The translations under genes and the position numbers were made by a program. 42,306 bases of DNA from Alphaproteobacteria bacterium (GTDB lineage: Bacteria > Pseudomonadota > Alphaproteobacteria > SHVP01), in the NCBI GenBank assembly GCA_016869765.1, contig VGES01000032.1:1-42306 (forward strand), in the 5' to 3' direction. Shown here piece by piece: positions 2,232 to 18,997 of this stretch (position 1 is the stretch's first letter; every line of letters starts with the position of its first letter). The notes beneath the pieces were generated by a model, which was given only the letters and a program-made list of their open reading frames with translations, did no database searches and was not told the origin of the DNA.

Positions 2232-3017
2232 ATGACGATCCGACGTGGCTACGTCGATACTCCGATGGGGCAAGTCCATTTTCGTCAAGCGGGCGATCGG
2301 GGTCCGCCGATGTTCTTCTTCCATCAGACTCCTCTTTCGTCGCGCCAGTACGAGCGCGCGCTGCCCCATCTCGGGCGCTTCTGCCGCGCTTTTGCGATGG
2401 ACACGCCGGGCTACGGTTTGTCGGACGGACCGTCGTCGCCGCCCATGGTCACCGATTATGCGGCCCAGCTCATTGCCGCGATCGACGCGCTCGGGATCGG
2501 CAAGTTTGCTGTCGGTGGTTTCGCTACAGGTTCCTGTGTCGCGCTCGCGATCGCCGGGCAGGCCGGCCCGCGGATCACGCACGGCGTGTTCTCGGGCATG
2601 CCGGTTCTGACGGAGGAACGGATGAAGCACTATGCGGACCGGTTGGGGGTGCCCAAGGTCGAGCGCGACGGATCACATCTCAAGCAGGTTTGGGACAGTC
2701 GCGTCGACAACTACGGCGGCGACGAGGAACTCGACCAAATCCAGATGGCGGTCGCGCAGACCGTCCTTATATATGAGCGCATGCACTGGGGGTTGTTGGC
2801 GGTTGGCAAGTTCGACTTGCGCCCAATTCTTCAATCCCTGGAGATTCCGACACTGTTCCTCATGGCGGAACACGACAAACTGGTGCCGGAAAACCGGATC
2901 GCCGCCTCCCTGGTCAAAGGCTCGCGCACCGTGAGCATCCCGGGGGGGCGACCACAGGTCTGTTGGACGATGCCGGAACGCTACGCAAGTCTGGTGAAGG
3001 AGTTTCTCGATGCGTAG
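2232..3017 (+). CDS. Alpha/beta-hydrolase-fold protein lacking canonical nucleophile
   Basis: This 261-residue protein has the order of an alpha/beta hydrolase: MFFFHQTPLSS (oxyanion-hole HQ region), DTPGYGLSD, the nucleophile elbow, and a late LMAEHDKLVPENR acid loop. The elbow reads GGFATGS, with alanine where the G-x-S-x-G serine should be. The usual late histidine loop (GGH) reads GGRPQVCW. The acid (Asp in AEHD) is kept. It may be non-hydrolytic, or belong to the GxHxG-like subset whose activity is unclear. ATG 2232 follows GAGGG at 2223-2226; a GTG at 2229 is an alternative. The end overlaps the next gene by eight bases, so the two are coupled. Confidence 0.85.
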   Translation: MTIRRGYVDTPMGQVHFRQAGDRGPPMFFFHQTPLSSRQYERALPHLGRFCRAFAMDTPGYGLSDGPSSPPMVTDYAAQLIAAIDALGIGKFAVGGFATGSCVALAIAGQAGPRITHGVFSGMPVLTEERMKHYADRLGVPKVERDGSHLKQVWDSRVDNYGGDEELDQIQMAVAQTVLIYERMHWGLLAVGKFDLRPILQSLEIPTLFLMAEHDKLVPENRIAASLVKGSRTVSIPGGRPQVCWTMPERYASLVKEFLDA

Positions 3018-5250
3018 GCTGATTGGGTCACTGCTGACGGCGATCGGTCTCGGCGCGTGCGGGATCTTGGCGCCGTTGCCGCCGCCGGCAAACCTCGATC
3101 AGCGCCTTTCGGCGTTGCCCACGCAGGGCATGCCTTTGCGTGCGCCGGTGACCATCCGATGGGACGACCATCAGATTCCGTTCATCGAAGCTGAGCATGA
3201 CGACGATCTCGCCTTTGCCATCGGTATCGTCCAGGCGCATCTCCGGTTGGGGTTGATGGAATTCCTGCGGCACGCCTCGCAGGGTCGGCTGGCCGAAATC
3301 GGTGGGCCGCTGGTCGCCGATATCGACCACGCTCTGAGAATCGTCGACTTCGGCAAGGCTGCACCCGAGATCGTCCGCAACATGCCGGAGGACACGCGGC
3401 GTTGGCTCGATCACTTCGTCCGCGGCGTGAATTTCTATGTGGCCCACAGCCGCGAGCTTCCACACGAGTACAAGGTGATGGGGATCGAACCGGCGCCATG
3501 GACGGCGGAAGACGTGATCACTGCCGGACGCCTTGCCTCCGCGGACGTCAACTGGTTCATCTGGTTTTCGTTGCTCAAGCAGCGTAAGCGCGAAGATTGG
3601 CCACGCTTGTGGGCGCAACTGGTCGCGGAAGGTTCGGCCTCGTTCCCGAGCTACGCCGCCGATCGCAGTTCCCGTCAGGCGCTGTTCCAAGACCTCCTGG
3701 GCGGCTTTTCGCGATCGGGCAGCAACTCTGTGGCGGTGGCGGGCTGGCGTTCGGCGAGCGGCAGCGCCTTGCTGGCGAGTGATCCGCACCTCGGCGTCTC
3801 CCAGCCGAACTTGTGGATCATCATCGGCTATCGTTCGCCGTCCTATCACGCGGTCGGCCTCATGCCGCCAGCACTTCCTTTCATTGCACTGGGGCGAAAC
3901 CCCGACGTTGCGTGGGGCGGTACCAACTTGAGGGCCGCGAGCAGCGACCTTTTCGATCTCAGTGGTCAGAACGGTGATGTGTTTCGTGAGCGCGTGGAGC
4001 AGATCAAGGTCCGTTGGTGGTTCGACCGTACCGAAAAAATCCGGGAAACGCCCCACGGTCCGGTGATCTCCGATGCCGGCCTCCTGGATCTCGGTCCCGG
4101 TGGTCCGTTCGCGCTCCGTTGGGTGGGGCACGACGCGAGCGACGAATTGACGGCCATGTTGGGGGTGAGCCGGGCGCGCAATTGGGAGCAGTTCCGAACG
4201 GCGCTCGAACCGTTTGCCGTGTCCGCCCAGAACATGGTGTACGCCGATCGCCATGGGAACATCGGGCTCCATTTGGCCGCGCGACTACCGAAACGGCCGG
4301 CGTCAACGCCGTCGGACGCGGTGCTGCCCCCCGACGCGTTGCGCCATTGGCAAAACCAGGTGAACGGGCGCGTATTGCCGTCGAGTTACAATCCACCGGC
4401 CGGCCTGCTCGCCACCGGAAACAACCGTGGTGCGGAGTCGCCGGTTCCTGTCGGTTACTTCTTCTCGCCGAACGACCGGGTGGTCCGCATGGGCGAGCTG
4501 CTGCGCGACAACCAGCGGGTGACGCTGCAGGATCTGGCGATCCTCCAGCGGGACGTGCGCGAAGAGTCCTCGGTCCTCGTGCGCGACGCTATCGTGGCGC
4601 GAGTCGATCCGGCGTGGCTCAGCCCCGACGAGCAGCTGATCATCGAGGAACTGCGGCGGTGGGACGGTCGTTACGAGACCGATTCGAAGGAAGCGGTCAC
4701 GTTCATGGCCTTCGCCACGGTCTTTGCCAGCCGGTTCCTCACCGCCGAGCAGCTGGCCGCCTACGAGGCCGCGGGTCGATTGGGCACGTTGCTCGCCAAG
4801 GACATCGCTGTGGCGCCAGCGGCATCGTTGCGCCAGCCGATGAAGGAAGCGGCGGCGGCCGCGAAACAGCGACGGGGGAAATTCGCCACCTGGGGCGACA
4901 TGCATCGCCTCTCCCTCTCCCATACGCTCGGCATGATCCCGGTCCTCGGGCGGCGTTTCGTGTTCGGCGACATTCCCGTGGCGGGCAGCAGCCAGACCAT
5001 CAACAAGACGGCGCATGCGTTGACCGATCGCCGTCATACGACACGCTATGGCTCGAATGCTCGTCACATCTCCGACCTCGCCAACCCCGACGAGAATTAC
5101 TTCGTGTTGCTCGGCGGACAGGACGGTTGGATGTCCAGCTCGACGTTTCTCGACCAAGTTCCGCTTTGGCAGCGGGGCGAATACGTCAAAGTCCCGCTCG
5201 ATCCCGATCGCGCGCCCAGCTTCCGCCATCGAACGGTCCTGAGACCCTAG
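3010..5250 (+). CDS. Penicillin-acylase-family (S45) Ntn hydrolase, lipoprotein
   Basis: This 746-residue N-acyl-amide hydrolase is of the penicillin amidase/acyl-homoserine-lactone acylase family. A short signal ends in the lipobox LGAC (Cys17), which predicts attachment to the periplasmic face of a membrane. An alpha-chain region runs to about residue 237. The autoprocessing site is G237-S238-N-S, where Ser238 would become the N-terminal nucleophile of the beta chain. The downstream motifs SGSALLASDPHLG and FIALGRNPDVAWGGTNLRA are typical of the family. The length matches full-size acylases. Substrates in this family are N-acyl amides (beta-lactams, acyl-homoserine lactones, lipoamino acids), and which one applies here is unknown. 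It lies between the hydrolase-fold gene (8-bp overlap) and GH3 (6-bp gap). Confidence 0.9.
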   Translation: MRRLIGSLLTAIGLGACGILAPLPPPANLDQRLSALPTQGMPLRAPVTIRWDDHQIPFIEAEHDDDLAFAIGIVQAHLRLGLMEFLRHASQGRLAEIGGPLVADIDHALRIVDFGKAAPEIVRNMPEDTRRWLDHFVRGVNFYVAHSRELPHEYKVMGIEPAPWTAEDVITAGRLASADVNWFIWFSLLKQRKREDWPRLWAQLVAEGSASFPSYAADRSSRQALFQDLLGGFSRSGSNSVAVAGWRSASGSALLASDPHLGVSQPNLWIIIGYRSPSYHAVGLMPPALPFIALGRNPDVAWGGTNLRAASSDLFDLSGQNGDVFRERVEQIKVRWWFDRTEKIRETPHGPVISDAGLLDLGPGGPFALRWVGHDASDELTAMLGVSRARNWEQFRTALEPFAVSAQNMVYADRHGNIGLHLAARLPKRPASTPSDAVLPPDALRHWQNQVNGRVLPSSYNPPAGLLATGNNRGAESPVPVGYFFSPNDRVVRMGELLRDNQRVTLQDLAILQRDVREESSVLVRDAIVARVDPAWLSPDEQLIIEELRRWDGRYETDSKEAVTFMAFATVFASRFLTAEQLAAYEAAGRLGTLLAKDIAVAPAASLRQPMKEAAAAAKQRRGKFATWGDMHRLSLSHTLGMIPVLGRRFVFGDIPVAGSSQTINKTAHALTDRRHTTRYGSNARHISDLANPDENYFVLLGGQDGWMSSSTFLDQVPLWQRGEYVKVPLDPDRAPSFRHRTVLRP

Positions 5251-5256
5251 TTCGAC

Positions 5257-6792
5257 ATGTTCGATGCCACCCCGTTGTTGCGTCGATATGCGGGGCGGCG
5301 CCTGGGTGCGTTGTCGCGGCACGATCCGATCGTCGAGCAGCGGCGCGTGTTGGAGCGATTGGTCGCCCGCGCGCGGTTCACGCAATTTGGTCGCGACCAT
5401 CGGTTCGAAGCGATTCGGACCGTCGCCGACTACCAGCAGCAAGTACCGCTGCGTCGCTATGAAGACTTCTGGCGCGACTATTGGCAGTCCGCATTTCCTG
5501 TTCTGCGCGACGTGACGTGGCCCGGGCTTATCCCGTTCTTCGCCTTGAGCTCGGGTACGACCAGCGGTACCACCAAGTACATCCCGTGCTCCGCCGCGAT
5601 GAACCGCAGCAACACGCGGGCCGGTGCCGACCTTCTCGCGTACCATCTGCAGGCGCGCCCCGATTCGCGTGTCCTCGGCGGCCTGTCCTTCATGCTGGGA
5701 GGCAGCACCGACCTCACCACCCTGGCGGACGGGGTACAAGCCGGAGACTTGAGTGGCATCGCGGTGCGCGTCATGCCCTGGTGGGCGCGCCGTCGCTACT
5801 TTCCGCCGGAGTCGCTCGCGCTACTCAGCGATTGGGAACGCAAGGTCGCATTGCTGGCGGAGCGTTCCCGGGGCCTCGATATTCGTATGATCGGTGGTAC
5901 GCCGAGCTGGCTTCTCATTTACTTCGATCGCTTGGCTTCCGGCCGCAAGGACGCGAGGCTGGTGGACTACTTTCCAAACCTCGAACTCTTGGTTCATGGC
6001 GGCGTCAATTTCGCGCCCTATCGTGGTCTCTTCGAACGTTGGTTGGCTGGCTCACAAGCGCTGCTGCGCGAGGTCTACCCGGCGAGCGAAGGTTTCGTCG
6101 CAGCAGCGGATCGCGGGCCGGGCGAAGGGCTGCGTTTGTTCGTCGATAACGGCCTGTTCTTCGAATTCGTTCCGATCGACGAACTGGACTCGCCGCAGCC
6201 GAGCCGCCACTGGCTAGGGACGATCGAAACCGGCGTCGAGTATGCGGTCGTGATCACGACGTGTGCCGGGCTGTGGTCCTACCTCGTCGGCGACACCGTT
6301 CGTTTTGTCGAGCAACGGCCTCCCCGACTGCTGGTCACCGGACGAACCGCCTACATGCTTTCGGCCTTCGGCGAGCACCTCACCGATGCCGAGATCGAGT
6401 CGGCCATGGCGGCGGCGGCGGATCAGGAGCAGCTTGCCGTCGTCGACTTCACGGTGGGTCCGGTGTTTCCGGACGGTCCGGGTGATCTCGGTGGTCATCT
6501 TTACATGGTGGAGTTCGCCGACGAGCCGGACGGCGAACGTCTGGCGCGCTTCGCTGCAGCGCTCGATGCCGCGTTGATGCGATCGAACGACGACTATCGA
6601 GCGCATCGCGCCGACGGATTCGGTCTGAGGGGACCGCGGGTGCAGGCCCTGGCGCCCGGGGCTTTCGCGGCGTGGATGAAGGCGCAAGGCCGCCTCGGTG
6701 GTCAGAACAAAGTGCCGCGCGTGCTCGTCGATCCGGATCGTTTCAAGGCTCTTCGCGCGGGCCTCGCGTCGTTCGTTCGAGGTCAGTCGTGA
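5257..6792 (+). CDS. GH3-family acyl-acid adenylating enzyme
   Basis: This 511-residue protein matches the GH3 'auxin-responsive promoter' family of the acyl-adenylate superfamily. In plants these enzymes activate an acyl acid with ATP and join it to an amino acid. Motifs in order are the phosphate-binding SSGTTSGTTK (98-107), YPASEG (274-279, matching plant Y-x-A-S-E) and GLWSYLVGDTVRF (338-350, with the ATP-ribose Asp at 346). A C-terminal domain follows. There is no signal peptide, so it is cytosolic. The start is only 6 bases after the acylase stop, so it is almost certainly co-transcribed. Bacterial GH3 substrates are largely unknown. Pairing with an amide hydrolase hints at N-acyl amino acid or similar conjugates, which is inference. 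Confidence 0.88.
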   Translation: MFDATPLLRRYAGRRLGALSRHDPIVEQRRVLERLVARARFTQFGRDHRFEAIRTVADYQQQVPLRRYEDFWRDYWQSAFPVLRDVTWPGLIPFFALSSGTTSGTTKYIPCSAAMNRSNTRAGADLLAYHLQARPDSRVLGGLSFMLGGSTDLTTLADGVQAGDLSGIAVRVMPWWARRRYFPPESLALLSDWERKVALLAERSRGLDIRMIGGTPSWLLIYFDRLASGRKDARLVDYFPNLELLVHGGVNFAPYRGLFERWLAGSQALLREVYPASEGFVAAADRGPGEGLRLFVDNGLFFEFVPIDELDSPQPSRHWLGTIETGVEYAVVITTCAGLWSYLVGDTVRFVEQRPPRLLVTGRTAYMLSAFGEHLTDAEIESAMAAAADQEQLAVVDFTVGPVFPDGPGDLGGHLYMVEFADEPDGERLARFAAALDAALMRSNDDYRAHRADGFGLRGPRVQALAPGAFAAWMKAQGRLGGQNKVPRVLVDPDRFKALRAGLASFVRGQS

Positions 6793-6922: not shown

Positions 6923-8260
6923 ATGAACCCTCCAATGGCCATGCGAATTGCCGTCGTTGGCGCCGGGATCGCCGGGCTGGGCGCAGCTTGGGCCCTCGCC
7001 AAGCACCACCACGTGACGCTGTTTGAGGCTGCGCCGTCGCCCGGGGGGCATAGCAACACGGTGGTGATCGAGCGCAACGGGCAGCGGACGGCGGTCGACA
7101 CCGGTTTCATCGTCTACAACGACGTCAATTATCCGCACCTGCTCCGATTGTTCGCCCATCTCGGCGTTCCCACCGAGCCCTCGAACATGTCCTTCTCCGT
7201 GTCGCTCGATGAGGGTCGCTTCGAGTACGCGAGCCTGTTGCCGTGGGGTCCGGTTGCCCAGGTCGCGAACCTGTTCAAACCGCGCTTCCTTCGCATGCTG
7301 TGGGAGATCCCGAAGTTCTATCGCGACGTGCGCGCGCGCCTGCCGTCGTTGGATCCCCGATCGACGTTGGGGGAGGTACTCGCCCAAGGCGGCTACGGCG
7401 AAACGTACCGGTTCCTGCACTTGCTTCCGATGGCATCGGCGATCTGGTCGACTCCGATCGAATGGATCGAGCGTTTCCCAGCCCGTCAGTTCGTGAAGTT
7501 CTACGAGGAGCACGGCTTGCTGCGCTTCTCGGATCGGCCGAAATGGCGGACCGTCTCGGGTGGTAGTCGCGAATACGTCCGCCGCCTGCTTGCCGATTTT
7601 TCCGGAACGGTGCGAACGGCGACTCCGGTCCGGCAGGTTCGCCGCGATTCAGACCGTATTTGGCTCGCCACGGCGGCTGGGGAGGAGGCCTACGATCACG
7701 TGGTGCTTGCCGTCCACGGTAACGATGCCCGTCGCATATTGGCTGACGCCGACGATCGCGAGCGATCGATGCTGGATGCCTATCGGTGCACGACCAATCG
7801 CGCCATTCTTCATCGCGACCCATCTTTCATGCCGCGTCGCCGCGCGGCTTGGGCGAGTTGGAACTATCATGCACAGAGCGATCAGCCAGCCGATCGCGTC
7901 GTGCCGGTGACCTACTGGATGAATCGGTTGCAGAACCTTCCACCGATGCCGCCGCTGTTCGTTTCGCTCAACCCCTGGCGCGAACCGGAGGAAGCCTTGC
8001 TCGATGCCGAGTTCCACTACGACCATCCGGTCTTTACGGTCGCGACCGCGGCCGCGAATGCTGCGCTGCCCTCGATCCAGGGACGCCGTCGCACATGGTT
8101 TTGCGGCGCCTACACGCGCCATGGGTTTCACGAGGACGGGCTTCGCTCGGGGTTCGCGGTGGCGGCCGCCCTGGGCGCGCCACCGCCCTGGGGGCTGTTA
8201 CCCTCGGACGCGAGCGATTCGGTTGTATCGGCCGAGGCGGCTAGAGTGGATGCCGCATGA
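6923..8260 (+). CDS. FAD-dependent oxidoreductase, COG2907 type
   Basis: This 445-residue flavoprotein has an N-terminal dinucleotide-binding motif (VVGAGIAGLGAAW), then GGHSNTV and TGFIVYN. It has a C-terminal FAD-contacting region (WFCGAYTRHGFHEDGLRSG). The NAD(P)/FAD-binding COG2907 family typically sits next to DUF1365 and a cyclopropane-fatty-acid synthase, as here, and is thought to act on unsaturated or modified membrane lipids; the reaction is not settled. The start is uncertain: ATGs at 6923, 6935 and 6941 are all in frame and none has a good Shine-Dalgarno. The stop overlaps the next start by four bases (ATGA). A 130-bp gap without a recognisable gene separates it from GH3. Confidence 0.87.
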   Translation: MNPPMAMRIAVVGAGIAGLGAAWALAKHHHVTLFEAAPSPGGHSNTVVIERNGQRTAVDTGFIVYNDVNYPHLLRLFAHLGVPTEPSNMSFSVSLDEGRFEYASLLPWGPVAQVANLFKPRFLRMLWEIPKFYRDVRARLPSLDPRSTLGEVLAQGGYGETYRFLHLLPMASAIWSTPIEWIERFPARQFVKFYEEHGLLRFSDRPKWRTVSGGSREYVRRLLADFSGTVRTATPVRQVRRDSDRIWLATAAGEEAYDHVVLAVHGNDARRILADADDRERSMLDAYRCTTNRAILHRDPSFMPRRRAAWASWNYHAQSDQPADRVVPVTYWMNRLQNLPPMPPLFVSLNPWREPEEALLDAEFHYDHPVFTVATAAANAALPSIQGRRRTWFCGAYTRHGFHEDGLRSGFAVAAALGAPPPWGLLPSDASDSVVSAEAARVDAA

Positions 8261-9087
8261 TCCAGTCATGTTTCTACGTCGGGCAGGTGGCACACGTCCG
8301 GACGCGTCCGGTCGAGCATCGCTTCTCCTATCGTGTCTTTTCGCTTTACGTCGATGTCGACTCGTTGCCAAAACTCGGCGCGCGGGGGCGTTGGTTCGGG
8401 TACAACCGCAATGCCCTCCTGAGCGTCCATGATCGTGACCACGGCGATGGCCGCATGCCGATCGCCCAATGGGTACGCCACCATCTGCGCAATGCCGGTT
8501 ACGCTGCCGACGGACCCATCGGTATGCAGTGTTATGGCCGGCTATGGGGCTACGTCTTCAATCCGCTGACCGTCTATTTCTGCTTTCGTGCCGACGGGCG
8601 GTTGGAGGCGTTGTTGCATGAGGTACACAACACGTTCGGTGAGCGTCACGGCTATCTCATCGCCGCCGACGATCCAGCCCAAGCCATCATCCGCCAGCGC
8701 TGCGCCAAGACGTTCTATGTCTCGCCGTTCATCGACATGGAGCCGAGTTACGAGTTCAAGGTGCGCGTCCCCGCCGAGCGCTTTGCCCTCGTGATCCGTG
8801 AATGGGACCGGGCCGGCGACCTGCTCTACGCCACGTTCCACGGTGAGCGCCGCCCGTGGTCGGCCAGTGCGGCTTGGCGCTTGATTGCGGGGCACCCTCT
8901 GATGACCCTCAAAGTTGTTGCTGGGATTCACTGGGAAGCGTTGCGGTTGTGGCGCAAGGGATTGCGCCTTATGCCTCACCCCGCCACAACCGAGGTCGTC
9001 GTCGACTATGTCGGGCGGGCCACGGCGCCCCTGGGCCCGGAAAGCCGCAGGGGCGTGGAGTCATCCGTTTTGCTACCGTCCGGGTAG
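8257..9087 (+). CDS. DUF1365 family protein
   Basis: This 276-residue protein matches DUF1365: an N-terminal CFYVGQVAHVRTRPVEHRFS, FSLYVDVDSLPKL, and the central CYGRLWGYVFNPLTVYFCF and LLHEVHNTFGERHGYL segments. The family has no proven reaction, but it is nearly always next to a COG2907 flavoprotein and a cyclopropane-fatty-acid synthase. That is the exact arrangement here, so a role in modifying or handling membrane acyl chains is likely. There is no signal peptide; the C-terminal third has a hydrophobic stretch (about 205-225) that could touch the membrane. It starts inside the stop of the preceding gene (ATGA overlap) and ends 31 bases before the synthase. Confidence 0.88.
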   Translation: MIQSCFYVGQVAHVRTRPVEHRFSYRVFSLYVDVDSLPKLGARGRWFGYNRNALLSVHDRDHGDGRMPIAQWVRHHLRNAGYAADGPIGMQCYGRLWGYVFNPLTVYFCFRADGRLEALLHEVHNTFGERHGYLIAADDPAQAIIRQRCAKTFYVSPFIDMEPSYEFKVRVPAERFALVIREWDRAGDLLYATFHGERRPWSASAAWRLIAGHPLMTLKVVAGIHWEALRLWRKGLRLMPHPATTEVVVDYVGRATAPLGPESRRGVESSVLLPSG

Positions 9088-9118
9088 TTCTGGGGGGCGT
9101 GGTCGGGGTCAGGGGACT

Positions 9119-10345
9119 ATGGAAGCTGATGCGTCATTGAGCGTGGCGTCGACGGATTGGGGTGCCCAGGGGGTACCCGGATTCTATCGGCCCGTCGTGC
9201 GCTCGTTCGCGAAGCGGTTCCTGTTGGGACGGTTGCGGTATCGACTGCCCAACGGGGTCGAAGGAATCCTCGTTGGCCGCGAGGAAGGTCCCGAGGCCGC
9301 CATCGAGGTTCGCCGTTGGCGGGCACTTCGGCGACTGATGTTCGGTGGCAAGCTCGGCTTCGCCGAAGCCTATCTCGAGGGCGATTGGTTCAGTCCCGAT
9401 CTCGCCAAGATGATCGAACTCATGTCCGCCAACGGTATTCGCCAGGAGGACTACAATGCCAGCTTGCGTTGGAGCCGCTGGGTCGACCAGCTGCGCCATC
9501 ACCTTCGACGCAACAACCGTAGCGGGAGTCGAAAGAACATTCAGTTCCACTATGACCTGGGCAACGAGTTCTATGAGCTCTGGCTCGATCCCAGCATGAC
9601 CTATTCGTCGGCCGTGTATCGGCCGGACGCCGCGGATCTGCAGCAAGCGCAACATCACAAGTACGATCGGATTCTCGAGTTGATCGCGGCCAAGCCCGGC
9701 GAACACGTGCTCGAGATCGGTTGTGGGTGGGGCGGCTTTGCGCGTCGCGCCGCCGCCGCCGGCCTGAAGGTCACCGGGATCACGCTGTCGACGCAACAGC
9801 ATGCTTATGCGATCAAGCGGGCGCAAGACCTGGGCTTGAGCGATCGTCTCTCCTTTCATCTCTGTGACTACCGTGACGTGGCGGGAACATTCGATCATGC
9901 GGTCTCGATTGAAATGATCGAAGCGGTGGGCGAGGCCTACTGGCCACAGTACTTCCGCAAGATCGCCGATGTCGTCCGTCCCGGCGGGCGCATCGCGCTG
10001 CAGGCGATTACCGTGCGTGACGAGGGGTTCGATCAGTACCGGCGTCGCGCCGATTTCATCCAAACCTATATCTTTCCTGGCGGAATGCTGCCTTGTCTCA
10101 AGGCTCTCCAGGATGTGAGTTCGAGGGTCGGCCTGCACTGGTTGGGCGACGATGGATTCGGCCAGCACTACGCCAAGACTCTCGAGGAGTGGCGCAAGAA
10201 TTTCTACGCAGCTTGGCCACGTATCCGGTCTCTCGGGTTCGACGAAAAGTTTCGTCGCATCTGGGAGTTCTACCTCGCGGGCTGCGAGGGCTCCTTCCGT
10301 GCGGGCGGGATCGACGTTCGGCAAATCGCCCTGGTTCGTCGCTGA
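9119..10345 (+). CDS. cfa: Cyclopropane-fatty-acyl-phospholipid synthase family
   Basis: This 408-residue SAM-dependent methyltransferase transfers a methylene or methyl group onto double bonds of phospholipid acyl chains at the inner membrane face. It shows the family signature HYDLGNEFYELWLDPSMTYS (144-163), the SAM-binding loop LEIGCGWGGFA (198-208), and GITLSTQQ (220-227), which follows it in the family. It also has SIEMIEAVGEAYWPQYF and a C-terminal GLHWLGDDGFGQHYAKTL. ATG 9119 was chosen because AGGGGA precedes it directly and the region upstream overlaps DUF1365 in another frame. Length fits the family (about 380-420). Whether it makes cyclopropanes or another methylated lipid (for example 10-methyl or furan-fatty-acid precursors) cannot be told. 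Confidence 0.92.
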   Translation: MEADASLSVASTDWGAQGVPGFYRPVVRSFAKRFLLGRLRYRLPNGVEGILVGREEGPEAAIEVRRWRALRRLMFGGKLGFAEAYLEGDWFSPDLAKMIELMSANGIRQEDYNASLRWSRWVDQLRHHLRRNNRSGSRKNIQFHYDLGNEFYELWLDPSMTYSSAVYRPDAADLQQAQHHKYDRILELIAAKPGEHVLEIGCGWGGFARRAAAAGLKVTGITLSTQQHAYAIKRAQDLGLSDRLSFHLCDYRDVAGTFDHAVSIEMIEAVGEAYWPQYFRKIADVVRPGGRIALQAITVRDEGFDQYRRRADFIQTYIFPGGMLPCLKALQDVSSRVGLHWLGDDGFGQHYAKTLEEWRKNFYAAWPRIRSLGFDEKFRRIWEFYLAGCEGSFRAGGIDVRQIALVRR

Positions 10346-10436
10346 CCACCGTCTCTCCGAGATGTGAACCGATCATCTCGTGGCGGGCGCGCGAGGTTGC
10401 TATGATGGTCCACCCGGGGGGAAAAGAGGCGGAAGA

Positions 10437-11126
10437 ATGCCGAGGCGCCATCCAATTCGCGTGTCGTTGGGAATCATCGTGGTGGTCATGTCCGTGGCCG
10501 CCGCCGACCAGCCGGTCGGGGCTCATCACGGCTACACCGAGTTGCTCGACTTTGCCGTCAGTCGTTCGGGGTCAACGATCGGCTACCACCGGCTCGATTT
10601 CCGCGACGTTGGGGAAGAGACCCATGTCGCGGTCGACGTCGAACTTCAGATAAAGCTCGGCTTCGTGACGCTGTTCCGCTACGAGCATCACAACCGCGAG
10701 ATCTGGAAAGCTGGTCGGTTGCTCCGCCTCGAAACCAAAACCAACGACGACGGTACCAAGTACGAGGTCACGGGCGAGCAAACCTCCGGTGGTTTGCGCG
10801 TCAAGACCCTGCGCGGCGAAGACACCTATCCCGCCGGGACCATGTCGGCGACGTACTGGAACATGGCGACCATCAAGCAGCATGCCCTGCTGGACACCCA
10901 GCGCGGGGGCCTGCTCAAGGTCGAGGTCGCCCCGGGACCGGCCGAAGAGGTCGAGCTCGGCAACGGGACCAAGGTCCAGGCCAAGCGCTACGACCTCAAG
11001 GGTGATCTCAACATCACGCTTTGGTACACCGAAGACGGTCGTTGGGTCGCCATGCAGTTCGCCGCGCGCGGCAGCGACATTTCTTACACGTTGTTTCCCG
11101 GCGGCCGCGGCAAAGGCAAGGCGTGA
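10437..11126 (+). CDS. DUF6134 family exported protein
   Basis: This 229-residue protein has a hydrophobic signal segment (about residues 8-25, ending SVAAADQPVGA). A beta-rich body follows: a repeat-like LDFAVSRSGSTIGYHRLDF, VELQIKLGFVTLFRYEHHNREIW and the family-typical TMSATYWN near the middle. It resembles DUF6134 proteins found in the same lipid operon in other Proteobacteria. The fold suggests a periplasmic lipid-binding or chaperone-like part, which is inference. ATG 10437 follows GAGGCGGAAG; upstream GTGs would add a non-conserved extension ahead of the signal peptide. The stop overlaps the next start by one base (TGATG). Confidence 0.72.
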   Translation: MPRRHPIRVSLGIIVVVMSVAAADQPVGAHHGYTELLDFAVSRSGSTIGYHRLDFRDVGEETHVAVDVELQIKLGFVTLFRYEHHNREIWKAGRLLRLETKTNDDGTKYEVTGEQTSGGLRVKTLRGEDTYPAGTMSATYWNMATIKQHALLDTQRGGLLKVEVAPGPAEEVELGNGTKVQAKRYDLKGDLNITLWYTEDGRWVAMQFAARGSDISYTLFPGGRGKGKA

Positions 11127-11560
11127 TGGATCTCCGTTCCGCGGCGGATCGCTACGTCGCGGTGATGCAGTCCATCTCTCCCCAGACCCTGTCGCGGTTG
11201 GCCGAGGTCTGCGCTCCCGACATCCTTTTCAAGGATCCGTTCAACGAAGGTCGGGGCCTCGACTACGTCATCCGCATCTTCGAACAAATGTATCGCGACA
11301 TCGGCGAGACCAAGACAGTCATCGATGACGTGGCGTTCTCGGACACGGCCTGCTACCTCCGCTGGACGCTGTCCTTTCGCCGCAAGAACGGTCGCGAGGC
11401 GACCGTCCTCGGCATGAGCGAGGTTCATTTCGGGGCCGATGGGCGCGCAATCCGCCATTTCGACCATTGGGACGCTGCTTCGCAGGTCTACGAACTGGTT
11501 CCTGTCCTCGGTGCCGTGCTGCGCCGAATCAAGCGTCGGCTCGCCACGCCGCTGCAATAG
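11126..11560 (+). CDS. SnoaL/NTF2-like small protein
   Basis: This 144-residue protein has the compact alpha+beta pattern of the SnoaL/ketosteroid-isomerase-like fold: an N-terminal helix (DRYVAVMQSISPQTLSRLAE), CAPDILFKDPFNEGRG, an aromatic-rich middle, and the terminal strand motif AIRHFDHWDAASQVYE. Members are small catalytic or ligand-binding cones. In COG2907-DUF1365-Cfa operons a protein of this fold is a frequent last gene, so it probably works on the same lipid product. It overlaps the DUF6134 stop by one base, which indicates translational coupling. The active-site function is not known. Confidence 0.8.
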   Translation: MDLRSAADRYVAVMQSISPQTLSRLAEVCAPDILFKDPFNEGRGLDYVIRIFEQMYRDIGETKTVIDDVAFSDTACYLRWTLSFRRKNGREATVLGMSEVHFGADGRAIRHFDHWDAASQVYELVPVLGAVLRRIKRRLATPLQ

Positions 11561-16226: not shown

Positions 16227-18161
16227 ACGTCCTTTCGTTTTCTCGCCGTCTTGCTGTTCTTGGTGTCGATGGTGGCCCCGGGGCTAGCCCAAACCCGTGT
16301 CCCCGATACCGTGGTCACCGCCACGCGTCTCGAGACCCCGACCGAAGAGGTGGGCAGCTCGATCACGGTGATAACTGCGAGCGACATGGAAGCTCGCCAA
16401 CAGCGTACGGTCGTCGATGTGCTGAGCGCTGTCCCCGGGTTCCGGGTCGTCCAATCTGGTGGTCCAGGTCGTCAGACGTCGATCTTCGCCCGCGGCACGA
16501 ACTCGAATCACACCATCGTGCTCATCGACGGCATCGAAATCGGCGACGCGTCCTCGCCCAACGGAGCTTTCAATTATGCCCATCTCACCACGTCGGCCAT
16601 CGATCGGATCGAGATCGTTCGGGGCCCACAGGGAACGCTGTTCGGTTCCGAGGCGATCGGGGGCGTGATCAACATCATCACGAAACAAGGTAGTGCCGGA
16701 TTGCGGCCTACAGCTTCCGTCGAGGGGGGCTCGTTCTCGACCGTCGTCGGGTCAGGCGCGATGGGCGGCGCCATCGGTAAGCTGACCTATTTCGGCTCGC
16801 TCAGCCGCTACTCCTCGCAGGGCCAATCGATCACACCGCCGCGTTTCCGATCGCTGGCGGCCGGCGCGAGCGACGAGGCTGACGGCTACGAGAATGGAAA
16901 CGGCGTGTTCAAGGTCAATTTTCCCTTGAGTGACCGCTCGGATGTCCGCCTCGTTGGCCATCACCTGCGCACGGCGGTCGACACCGATCAGCCCATCGAA
17001 GATCGCAACGCAACCGAACGTACGCGCCAATGGTTTGGCCGGGCCGAGGTTCGCACGCGTTTCCTGGCCGGGGACGTCGAGACCACCGTGGGTACGGCCT
17101 TCACCCGCCATCACCGCGACACCAAGAACCTGCCCGACATTGCCAACACGCGTCAGGTCAGCAACAACCTAGGGCTGCGCCACAAGATCGACGTCAAGAA
17201 CGACTACTTCGGGATCGACGATCACGTCCTCTCGCTCGGCCTCGAGACGGAACAGGAGAAACTGATCGATCGTCAGGCGTCGAATTTCAGCGGCTTCATT
17301 GTGCGCGGCACGAGCGACGCCGAAGTGCGTACCAACGCGCTCTTCGTGCAGGACCACTGGACCATTCGTGACAATTTCACTGTCACGTTTGGCGGCCGTT
17401 TGGACGATCACGACGCGTTCGGTCGAGCGTTCACGTACCGCGCGACACCGGTCTATCGGCTGACATCGACGGCCACGAAGTTCCGGGGCACTTACGGCAC
17501 GGGATTCCGTGCCCCCGCGCTGTTCCAACTTTTCGGCTTCACGGCGAACTCGATCGGGGGGACGTTCCGTGGCAATCCCAATCTCGTGCCCGAACGCGCC
17601 AAAGGTTGGGAGCTCGGCGCCGAACAACCGCTGTTGGGCGGTGTGCTGACGGTCGGGAGCGTCTACTTCCACAGCGACGTGAGAAATCTCATCGATACCG
17701 TCTTTGTGTTCCCCAACTCACAGGTGCGCAATCTCAACGATGCCGAGATGGAAGGGTTCGAGTCGTTCGTCGCTTGGCGAGCGACCCCGGCTGTCGATGT
17801 TCGACTCGATCACACGTTCACGCGGGCGGAGAACGCGACGACGGGCGGCGATCTCCTCCGTCGGCCGCGCCACAAGCTCGACGGCGACGTACGCTATCGA
17901 GTGGACGAATCGCTGACGTTGTCGGCCACCGGCCAGTTCATCGGCCAGACCAAGGACATTACGGGCAATCCCAACGCGTCCGCGGTCGAGTTCTACAAGG
18001 GGAGCTACCTGTTGTTCGGGGTGGCGGCGACGCTGGCCGTTCGCGACGACGTCCGGTTGTTCGTCCGTGCCGACAACGTGCTCAATCGTGAATACGAAAC
18101 GGCTGACGGCCTGCGCGGCTACGGCCGCGGCGTGTTCGCCGGCATCGGAGCCACCTTCTGA
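16224..18161 (+). CDS. btuB: TonB-dependent outer-membrane cobalamin receptor
   Basis: This 645-residue outer-membrane receptor has a signal peptide cleaved near residue 22 (APGLA-Q). A TonB box, DTVVTATR (28-35), is followed by a plug domain (SSITVITASDMEARQQRTVVDVLSAVPGF; IDRIEIVRGPQGTLFGSEAIGGVINIIT), then a beta-barrel ending in phenylalanine (GIGATF), the usual C-terminal signature of barrel insertion. Size fits BtuB (about 590-650). The cobalamin riboswitch upstream and the ABC uptake genes downstream define the substrate. The start codon lies inside a predicted hairpin. The stop overlaps the next start by one base (TGATG). Confidence 0.94.
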   Translation: MTSFRFLAVLLFLVSMVAPGLAQTRVPDTVVTATRLETPTEEVGSSITVITASDMEARQQRTVVDVLSAVPGFRVVQSGGPGRQTSIFARGTNSNHTIVLIDGIEIGDASSPNGAFNYAHLTTSAIDRIEIVRGPQGTLFGSEAIGGVINIITKQGSAGLRPTASVEGGSFSTVVGSGAMGGAIGKLTYFGSLSRYSSQGQSITPPRFRSLAAGASDEADGYENGNGVFKVNFPLSDRSDVRLVGHHLRTAVDTDQPIEDRNATERTRQWFGRAEVRTRFLAGDVETTVGTAFTRHHRDTKNLPDIANTRQVSNNLGLRHKIDVKNDYFGIDDHVLSLGLETEQEKLIDRQASNFSGFIVRGTSDAEVRTNALFVQDHWTIRDNFTVTFGGRLDDHDAFGRAFTYRATPVYRLTSTATKFRGTYGTGFRAPALFQLFGFTANSIGGTFRGNPNLVPERAKGWELGAEQPLLGGVLTVGSVYFHSDVRNLIDTVFVFPNSQVRNLNDAEMEGFESFVAWRATPAVDVRLDHTFTRAENATTGGDLLRRPRHKLDGDVRYRVDESLTLSATGQFIGQTKDITGNPNASAVEFYKGSYLLFGVAATLAVRDDVRLFVRADNVLNREYETADGLRGYGRGVFAGIGATF

Positions 18162-18997
18162 TGCCGGGGCGTGAGCCAACTTCGATGATGCGAGGGATCG
18201 CCATCGTGATCGTCCTGATCGTAGGGTTGGTTGGGCCAACGAACGCCAAGCCGCAGCGGGTGGTGTCGATCAACCTGTGCACGGATCAGTTGGTCGTCAC
18301 GCTCGCCGACCCTGCGCGCATCGTGTCGCTCTATCGAACCTCGGCCGACCCGTCGTTTTCTTACGTGGCGGATCGCCTGCCCAAGGTTGTTTACAACCGG
18401 GGGCTCGCCGAGGAAGTGCTGGTACTGAAGCCCGATCTCGTGATCGCGGGCGTGTTCACGACTCGCGCAACCGTGGCAATCCTGCGTCGCCACGACATCC
18501 CGGTGATCGAGTTGCCGCTGATCGATTCCTTTGCCGCCGTCCGACAGCAGGTCATGCATGTCGCCACCGCACTGGGCGAGGAAGCACGCGGGCGATCTCT
18601 CCTCGACGACATGGATCGGCGGCTCGAACGCGTGGCCCACGTCGGGCCTCGCCGCCCCGCCCTCTTGGTCGGATCGGGCCTGTTCACCAACGGTCAGGGA
18701 ACGTTGCTCGACGAGGCGCTGACGGCTGCTGGCCTCGAGAACGTGGCGGCCAGACGAGGGGTGGTGGGATTTTCGCGGATCGGTCTCGAGCAACTTCTGG
18801 CAGCGGCCCCGGACGTCGTCATCATTCCGGATGACCCGCAGCGACGTCCGTCGCTTTCGGCCCAGCTTCTTCGTCATCCTGCGCTGGGCGACCTGGCGCG
18901 CCGCCGGACGGTCGTGTCGATTCCGGCGGCGCTATGGTCGTGCGGCGGACCCTTCATCGTCGAGGCGGTCGAACGACTGGCGGAGGCCGCGCGATGA
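18161..18997 (+). CDS. btuF: Cobalamin-binding periplasmic protein (ABC uptake)
   Basis: This 278-residue substrate-binding protein is of the helical-backbone, cluster A-II type (BtuF/FecB). A signal peptide with a hydrophobic core (GIAIVIVLIVGLVGPTNA) is followed by RVVSINLCTDQLVVTLADP and RIVSLYRTSADP, then VLVLKPDLVIAG and a second lobe from about 160. The SxNLCTDQL start is characteristic of cobalamin and corrinoid binders. It delivers cobalamin from BtuB to the inner-membrane transporter. The start at 18161 overlaps the btuB stop; ATG 18185 is an alternative that would give a shorter n-region. It overlaps the permease gene by four bases. Confidence 0.9.
   Translation: MPGREPTSMMRGIAIVIVLIVGLVGPTNAKPQRVVSINLCTDQLVVTLADPARIVSLYRTSADPSFSYVADRLPKVVYNRGLAEEVLVLKPDLVIAGVFTTRATVAILRRHDIPVIELPLIDSFAAVRQQVMHVATALGEEARGRSLLDDMDRRLERVAHVGPRRPALLVGSGLFTNGQGTLLDEALTAAGLENVAARRGVVGFSRIGLEQLLAAAPDVVIIPDDPQRRPSLSAQLLRHPALGDLARRRTVVSIPAALWSCGGPFIVEAVERLAEAAR

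Follow-up and report, generated by a model that had tools for sequence, protein, structure and literature searches.

A conserved S45-family acylase partner of OlsH-like GH3 proteins in Alphaproteobacteria, with a tentative role in N-acyl amino lipid turnover

The stretch of DNA analysed here, referred to as the window, comprises 42,306 nucleotides of an alphaproteobacterial contig (VGES01000032.1, assembly GCA_016869765.1). It contains adjacent genes for an S45 (penicillin amidase) family acylase and a GH3 acyl-amino-acid amido synthetase (Table 1). As a preliminary description made from the sequence alone had reported, the two are six bases apart, and the spacer (TTCGAC) runs from the TAG stop codon of the S45 gene to the ATG of the GH3 gene. 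The last 8 bp of an α/β-hydrolase-fold gene, which the preliminary description did not include, overlap the start of the S45 gene, so the operon likely begins before S45, and this gene is probably its first. A 387-residue pentapeptide-repeat protein is encoded upstream of the α/β hydrolase (positions 249–1412), and is found in the same place in two other loci (L038 and L092). Downstream of GH3, a gap of 130 bp is followed by a series of FAD-oxidoreductase, DUF1365, CFA-type methyltransferase and DUF6134 genes. The preliminary description had noted a lipid-modifying operon directly after the pair; this is the case in the window, but such an operon adjoins the pair or GH3 only in the window's own family (the window, L038, L087, L089 and L184), and therefore lies outside the conserved unit.

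Table 1. Positions of the genes, catalytic residues and motifs at the S45-GH3 locus of the window.
Feature	Position	Strand	Basis or remark
α/β-hydrolase-fold gene, 262 aa	2229..3017	+	Pfam Abhydrolase_1, E 9e-14
S45 / penicillin-amidase-family N-terminal-nucleophile acylase, lipoprotein, 746 aa	3010..5250	+	PF01804
S45 lipoprotein signal peptide with lipobox (L-G-A-C, Cys17)	3010..3060	+	sequence
S45 Ser238-Asn239 (Ser β1), expected autocleavage and nucleophile site	3721..3726	+	invariant in 45/45 relatives
S45 His260 (β23 position)	3787..3789	+	invariant in 45/45 relatives
S45 Asn471, expected oxyanion-hole Asn	4420..4422	+	invariant in 45/45 relatives
GH3 acyl-amino-acid amido synthetase, OlsH-like, 511 aa	5257..6792	+	PF03321, PF23571, PF23572; NF052613
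GH3 nucleotide motif I, SSGTTSGTTK	5548..5577	+	alignment; S99 at the OlsH Ser115 position
GH3 nucleotide motif II, YPASEG	6076..6093	+	alignment
GH3 nucleotide motif III, GLWSYLVGD	6268..6294	+	alignment
FAD-oxidoreductase/DUF1365/CFA-type methyltransferase operon	6923..10345		adjoins GH3

The S45 protein is a member of PF01804 by its full-length profile match, its catalytic Ser, His and Asn residues and its fold. The Penicil_amidase profile covers residues 46–734 with 497 bits (E = 1.9e-148, cut-off 21.3). The β chains of solved S45 enzymes align starting at Ser238, a Gly-Ser-Asn site for predicted autoproteolytic maturation is present, and Asn471 sits in an N-rich motif aligned with the PGA β chain. 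In a fold search with the AlphaFold model (pLDDT 91), the best match in the PDB was D-succinylase (Z = 44.7, 677 residues, 2.9 Å, 26% identity), followed by cephalosporin acylase and then the AHL acylase MacQ, with acyl-CoA:isopenicillin N acyltransferase among the Ntn-type matches. The common Ntn-hydrolase fold, Ser β1, His β23 and the oxyanion Asn are shared with S45 acylases including D-succinylase (7ea4/7eby), cephalosporin acylase, penicillin G acylase, MacQ and PvdQ. Position β57 is Leu, Val or Ile in nearly all copies, which hints at a hydrophobic pocket. The host genome carries three further S45 genes. Across 385 alphaproteobacterial genomes, matches to the window protein split into two score ranges, 314–975 and 205–245 bits, and only the upper group was counted as the S45 clade, with split genes and partial matches at contig ends standing apart from the gap. 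The window protein thus belongs to a clade of its own, separated from other alphaproteobacterial S45 proteins by a score gap (≥314 versus ≤245 bits) and tied to GH3.

The GH3 protein contains the N-terminal, central and C-terminal domains of the family (E = 4e-24, 4e-14 and 5e-17; 85.8, 53.0 and 63.1 bits, against a gathering threshold of 23.6), and residues S99, G100, T101, S277, E278, G338 and D346 are invariant among 34 aligned relatives. The pairing of an amide-forming enzyme with an amide-cleaving acylase, as first proposed for this locus, is supported. To our knowledge, bacterial GH3 proteins number in the thousands, and function has been tested for only one of them, OlsH of Singulisphaera acidiphila. 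The best curated match of the window protein is the OlsH family itself (NCBIfam NF052613; 608.4 bits, E = 1e-182, residues 9–509 of 511); since this score is below the curated equivalog cut-off of 620 bits, the protein is classed as OlsH-like rather than as OlsH. Other alphaproteobacterial GH3 proteins score 570–600 bits and planctomycete members 675–694. In a quick tree of 90 proteins, with the root placed on Bacteroidota and deltaproteobacterial sequences, the alphaproteobacterial clade (SH-aLRT 98) is sister to the planctomycete OlsH clade (99).

OlsH is an ATP-dependent lyso-ornithine-lipid synthetase that uses a free fatty acid and, preferably, ornithine, with ATP and Mg2+; its motif I residue Ser115 is essential, and its partner OlsI, an α/β-hydrolase acyltransferase, attaches the second acyl chain (J Biol Chem 2025, PMC12493201). 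The same authors found OlsH inactive in living E. coli, for which they blamed scarce free fatty acid, and stated that GH3 members beyond the planctomycetes may differ in amino-acid specificity; their paper makes no mention of an S45 partner (PMC12493201). By relation to OlsH, the window enzyme likely acts on long-chain fatty acids and ornithine. The three GH3 domains, the fold family and the motifs are also common to the plant enzymes JAR1/AtGH3.11 and AtGH3.12, but the sequences are distant (JAR1, 56 bits) and plant hormones are implausible substrates; jasmonate-like acids, put forward in the preliminary description, are unlikely given the relation to OlsH. That description also knew of no bacterial system of this form, which fails for the GH3 enzyme, a type known as OlsH, and stands for the S45 partner. 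The open-access literature searched yielded no report of a link between GH3 and an acylase, of S45 enzymes with acyl amino acids, or of ornithine-lipid amidases. What appears new, then, is the conserved S45 partner, with the GH3 protein itself standing beside the known OlsH.

The 385 alphaproteobacterial genomes were surveyed for both genes, with gene starts set by rule; many of the genomes are metagenome-assembled and the counts are not independent. This GH3 type is present in 46 genomes, the S45 clade in 56 and both in 38 (odds ratio 85, Fisher p = 7e-31, with relatedness not corrected for). The two genes are neighbours in 28 of the 38, always with S45 upstream on the same strand (28/28) and with a gap of 2–441 bp, and lie apart in the other 10. 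A Pseudomonadota-wide sample of 359 genomes included a single genome from outside the class with either gene (G489), and this has both, adjacent and in the same order, 47 bp apart. A scan of named genomes found S45 before GH3 in Azospirillum halopraeferens, Silicimonas algicola, Lutibaculum baratangense, Desertibaculum subflavum and others, as well as in Acetobacteraceae and Rhodospirillales MAGs. The GH3 genes retrieved from Bacteroidota, planctomycetes and deltaproteobacteria have no S45 neighbour. Among 36 linked pairs, median identity is 47% for S45 and 55% for GH3, and the surrounding genes mostly differ.

The adjacency first noticed in the window therefore recurs in related genomes and in another class. 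Co-localisation of the two genes with no functional link could be read from the absence of the S45 clade in 8 of the 46 GH3 genomes, and from the alphaproteobacterial part of the GH3 tree, on which linkage was lost or gained at least 16 times; this explanation is nevertheless strongly disfavoured by the odds ratio, the fixed order and strand, the pair outside the class and the co-occurrence of the genes even where they are unlinked. Co-occurrence together with linkage in a fixed order and strand leads us to conclude that the two genes form a functional unit. Fusions of S45 and GH3 suggested by several loci were dismissed, as they are mostly over-long ORF calls in another frame. In a Defluviicoccus MAG (L028, positions 7181–11542), the S45 gene is split between frames with its last part in frame with GH3, possibly a sequencing or assembly error. 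Two tandem GH3 genes occur in L014, G203 and G204.

The arrangement resembles that of OlsH and OlsI in S. acidiphila in its GH3 subfamily, nucleotide motifs and sister clade, and in having an acyl-enzyme-type gene directly upstream of GH3; it differs in that the partner is an S45 acylase rather than an α/β-hydrolase acyltransferase, and in that no OlsG gene was seen beside the pair, the host also having an OlsB-type gene. OlsI is absent beside the window GH3 gene, and no ortholog was found in 11 alphaproteobacterial genomes, where the best score was 45 bits (33 in the host's own genome) versus 283 and 362 in two planctomycetes. The α/β hydrolase of the window was considered as a candidate OlsI and rejected, as there is no cross-match at E 1e-5 and its nucleophile position is Ala. 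In genomes of the same family, copies of this gene lie upstream of the pair (L119) or directly before GH3 (L038, L092 and L184). All five copies, including that of the window, have a GFATG nucleophile elbow in which Ala replaces Ser, so the protein may be no ordinary esterase. A dienelactone-hydrolase (DLH) family protein, which has a signal peptide in some copies, recurs with GH3 or S45. It occupies the S45 slot upstream of GH3 in four loci lacking S45 (L031, L179, L182 and L185), and was also seen near the pair or near a second S45 gene in L017, L079, L033 and L166.

Upstream of GH3, planctomycetes thus have OlsI, and Alphaproteobacteria have S45, a DLH-family protein or the window-type α/β hydrolase. 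The main rival to the reading that we prefer is built on this: S45 would replace OlsI, forming an acyl-Ser intermediate and passing the acyl group to a hydroxyl of the GH3 product, to give a two-chain amino lipid. The absence of OlsI orthologs and the acyltransferase among the fold matches are consistent with such a role. However, the nearest solved relatives of S45 are hydrolases, S45 is present without GH3 in 18 of the 56 genomes, and most copies are turned towards the periplasm, whereas acyl-CoA and acyl-ACP donors are cytosolic. We regard replacement of OlsI as unlikely.

The cellular location of the acylase bears on two further alternatives. The N-terminus of the window S45 protein, MRRLIGSLLTAIGLGAC, is a lipoprotein signal that includes the lipobox, and a lipobox is found in 46 of 66 N-termini of the clade. 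The preliminary description had placed GH3 in the cytosol and S45 beyond the inner membrane, with a conjugate made inside and released or recycled outside; on this reading, the cytosolic conjugate would leave the cell as a signal or protected intermediate and be cut there. The placement agrees with the lipobox of the window protein and of 25 of the 38 S45 proteins adjacent to GH3 (the window's included), but it is not general: the other 13 of the 38 lack the motif. In several lipobox-less proteins (L021, L145, L045 and L012), the hydrophobic stretch runs directly into Arg-rich sequence, which disfavours export, and to judge from their N-termini, GH3-linked proteins of this kind may be cytosolic. 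No exporter gene recurs beside the pair, and this scheme is, in our view, improbable. Equally doubtful is a role in scavenging or defence, in which S45 would cut exogenous N-acyl compounds (acyl-homoserine lactones, N-acyl amino acids or lipopeptides) and GH3 would re-conjugate or detoxify the freed acids. The quorum-quenching acylases PvdQ and MacQ have the same fold and a lipoprotein location fits in most genomes, whereas the GH3-linked proteins without a lipobox do not fit, and the match to PvdQ is a mere trace (23.5 bits, against an equivalog cut-off of 950), on which assignment as PvdQ itself was rejected.

At other loci of the GH3 clade, the neighbouring genes suggest a connection with lipids. 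In L037, GH3 has a divergent neighbour that encodes an OlsC-like hydroxylase (positions 8850–9698; NF052565, 237 bits versus a cut-off of 450), with the gene family also present in L044, and fatty-acid desaturase genes lie beside GH3-clade genes in L007, L049 and L181. An OlsB-type gene, so called by assignment to PF13444, which does not prove OlsB function, is present in all 56 S45-clade genomes, including the 18 without GH3, versus 197 of the remaining 329. This is weak evidence, as large genomes of free-living Alphaproteobacteria commonly carry PF13444; its presence in every S45-clade genome does mean that an N-acyl-ornithine lipid may be available as an S45 substrate even where GH3 is missing. 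The gene is also found in 44 of the 46 GH3 genomes, that of the host included, and GH3 was accordingly rejected as the sole route to ornithine lipid. The first step of the OlsB/OlsA pathway, N-acylation of ornithine, is chemically alike, but its acyltransferase is unrelated to GH3 and co-exists with the pair in these genomes.

Polyamine genes are found near the pair or one of its genes in a few lineages, and a link is possible. A gene for an S-adenosylmethionine-decarboxylase-like protein (SpeD, PF02675) lies directly downstream of GH3 in four genomes of the same family (L087, L089, L092 and L184); SpeD is absent from the window and from the rest of the host genome. In two genomes without GH3 (G122 and G388; L152, positions 4404–5390, and L164, positions 6974–7834), the gene immediately before an S45-clade gene encodes a spermidine synthase, and SpeD and SpeE homologs lie ~6–7 kb from the pair in L015 (positions 17266–18443).

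Taking these results together, our preferred reading, to which we assign a probability of roughly 0.4, is that the pair is a two-gene unit for the turnover or headgroup exchange of N-acyl amino acids, probably the headgroups of amino lipids. Like OlsH, GH3 would use ATP to activate a long-chain fatty acid in its free form and link it to the α-amine of an amino acid, the likeliest acceptors being ornithine and other basic amino acids. S45 would mature by self-cleavage, with Ser238 as the nucleophile, and would hydrolyse the same type of amide at the membrane surface, in lyso-lipids, OlsB-made ornithine lipids or acylated amines from outside. The free fatty acid so released would be a substrate of OlsH-type enzymes, which GH3 would re-ligate, so that N-acyl amino lipids would on balance be salvaged or have their headgroups exchanged. 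The two families with intact active sites, the linkage and co-occurrence of the genes, the kinship of GH3 to OlsH and the absence of an OlsI ortholog support this turnover model, in which the substrates, a single compound class common to both enzymes and the direction of flow are inferred. Against the model, a cell that both forms and breaks the same bond would gain nothing unless the two activities were regulated or kept apart, and each gene also occurs in genomes that lack the other.

In a more specific form, which we offer tentatively, S45 and GH3 would be a dedicated make-and-break module for recycling or exchanging the amino-acid headgroups of bacterial N-acyl amino lipids, a kind of membrane remodelling so far undescribed, and would be inherited and transferred as a unit. 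A second conserved partner of GH3 gives a direct handle on the role of the alphaproteobacterial GH3 branch. If the pair does both build and dismantle amino lipids, a turnover step would join the known synthesis and modification of this lipid class, about whose breakdown little is known.
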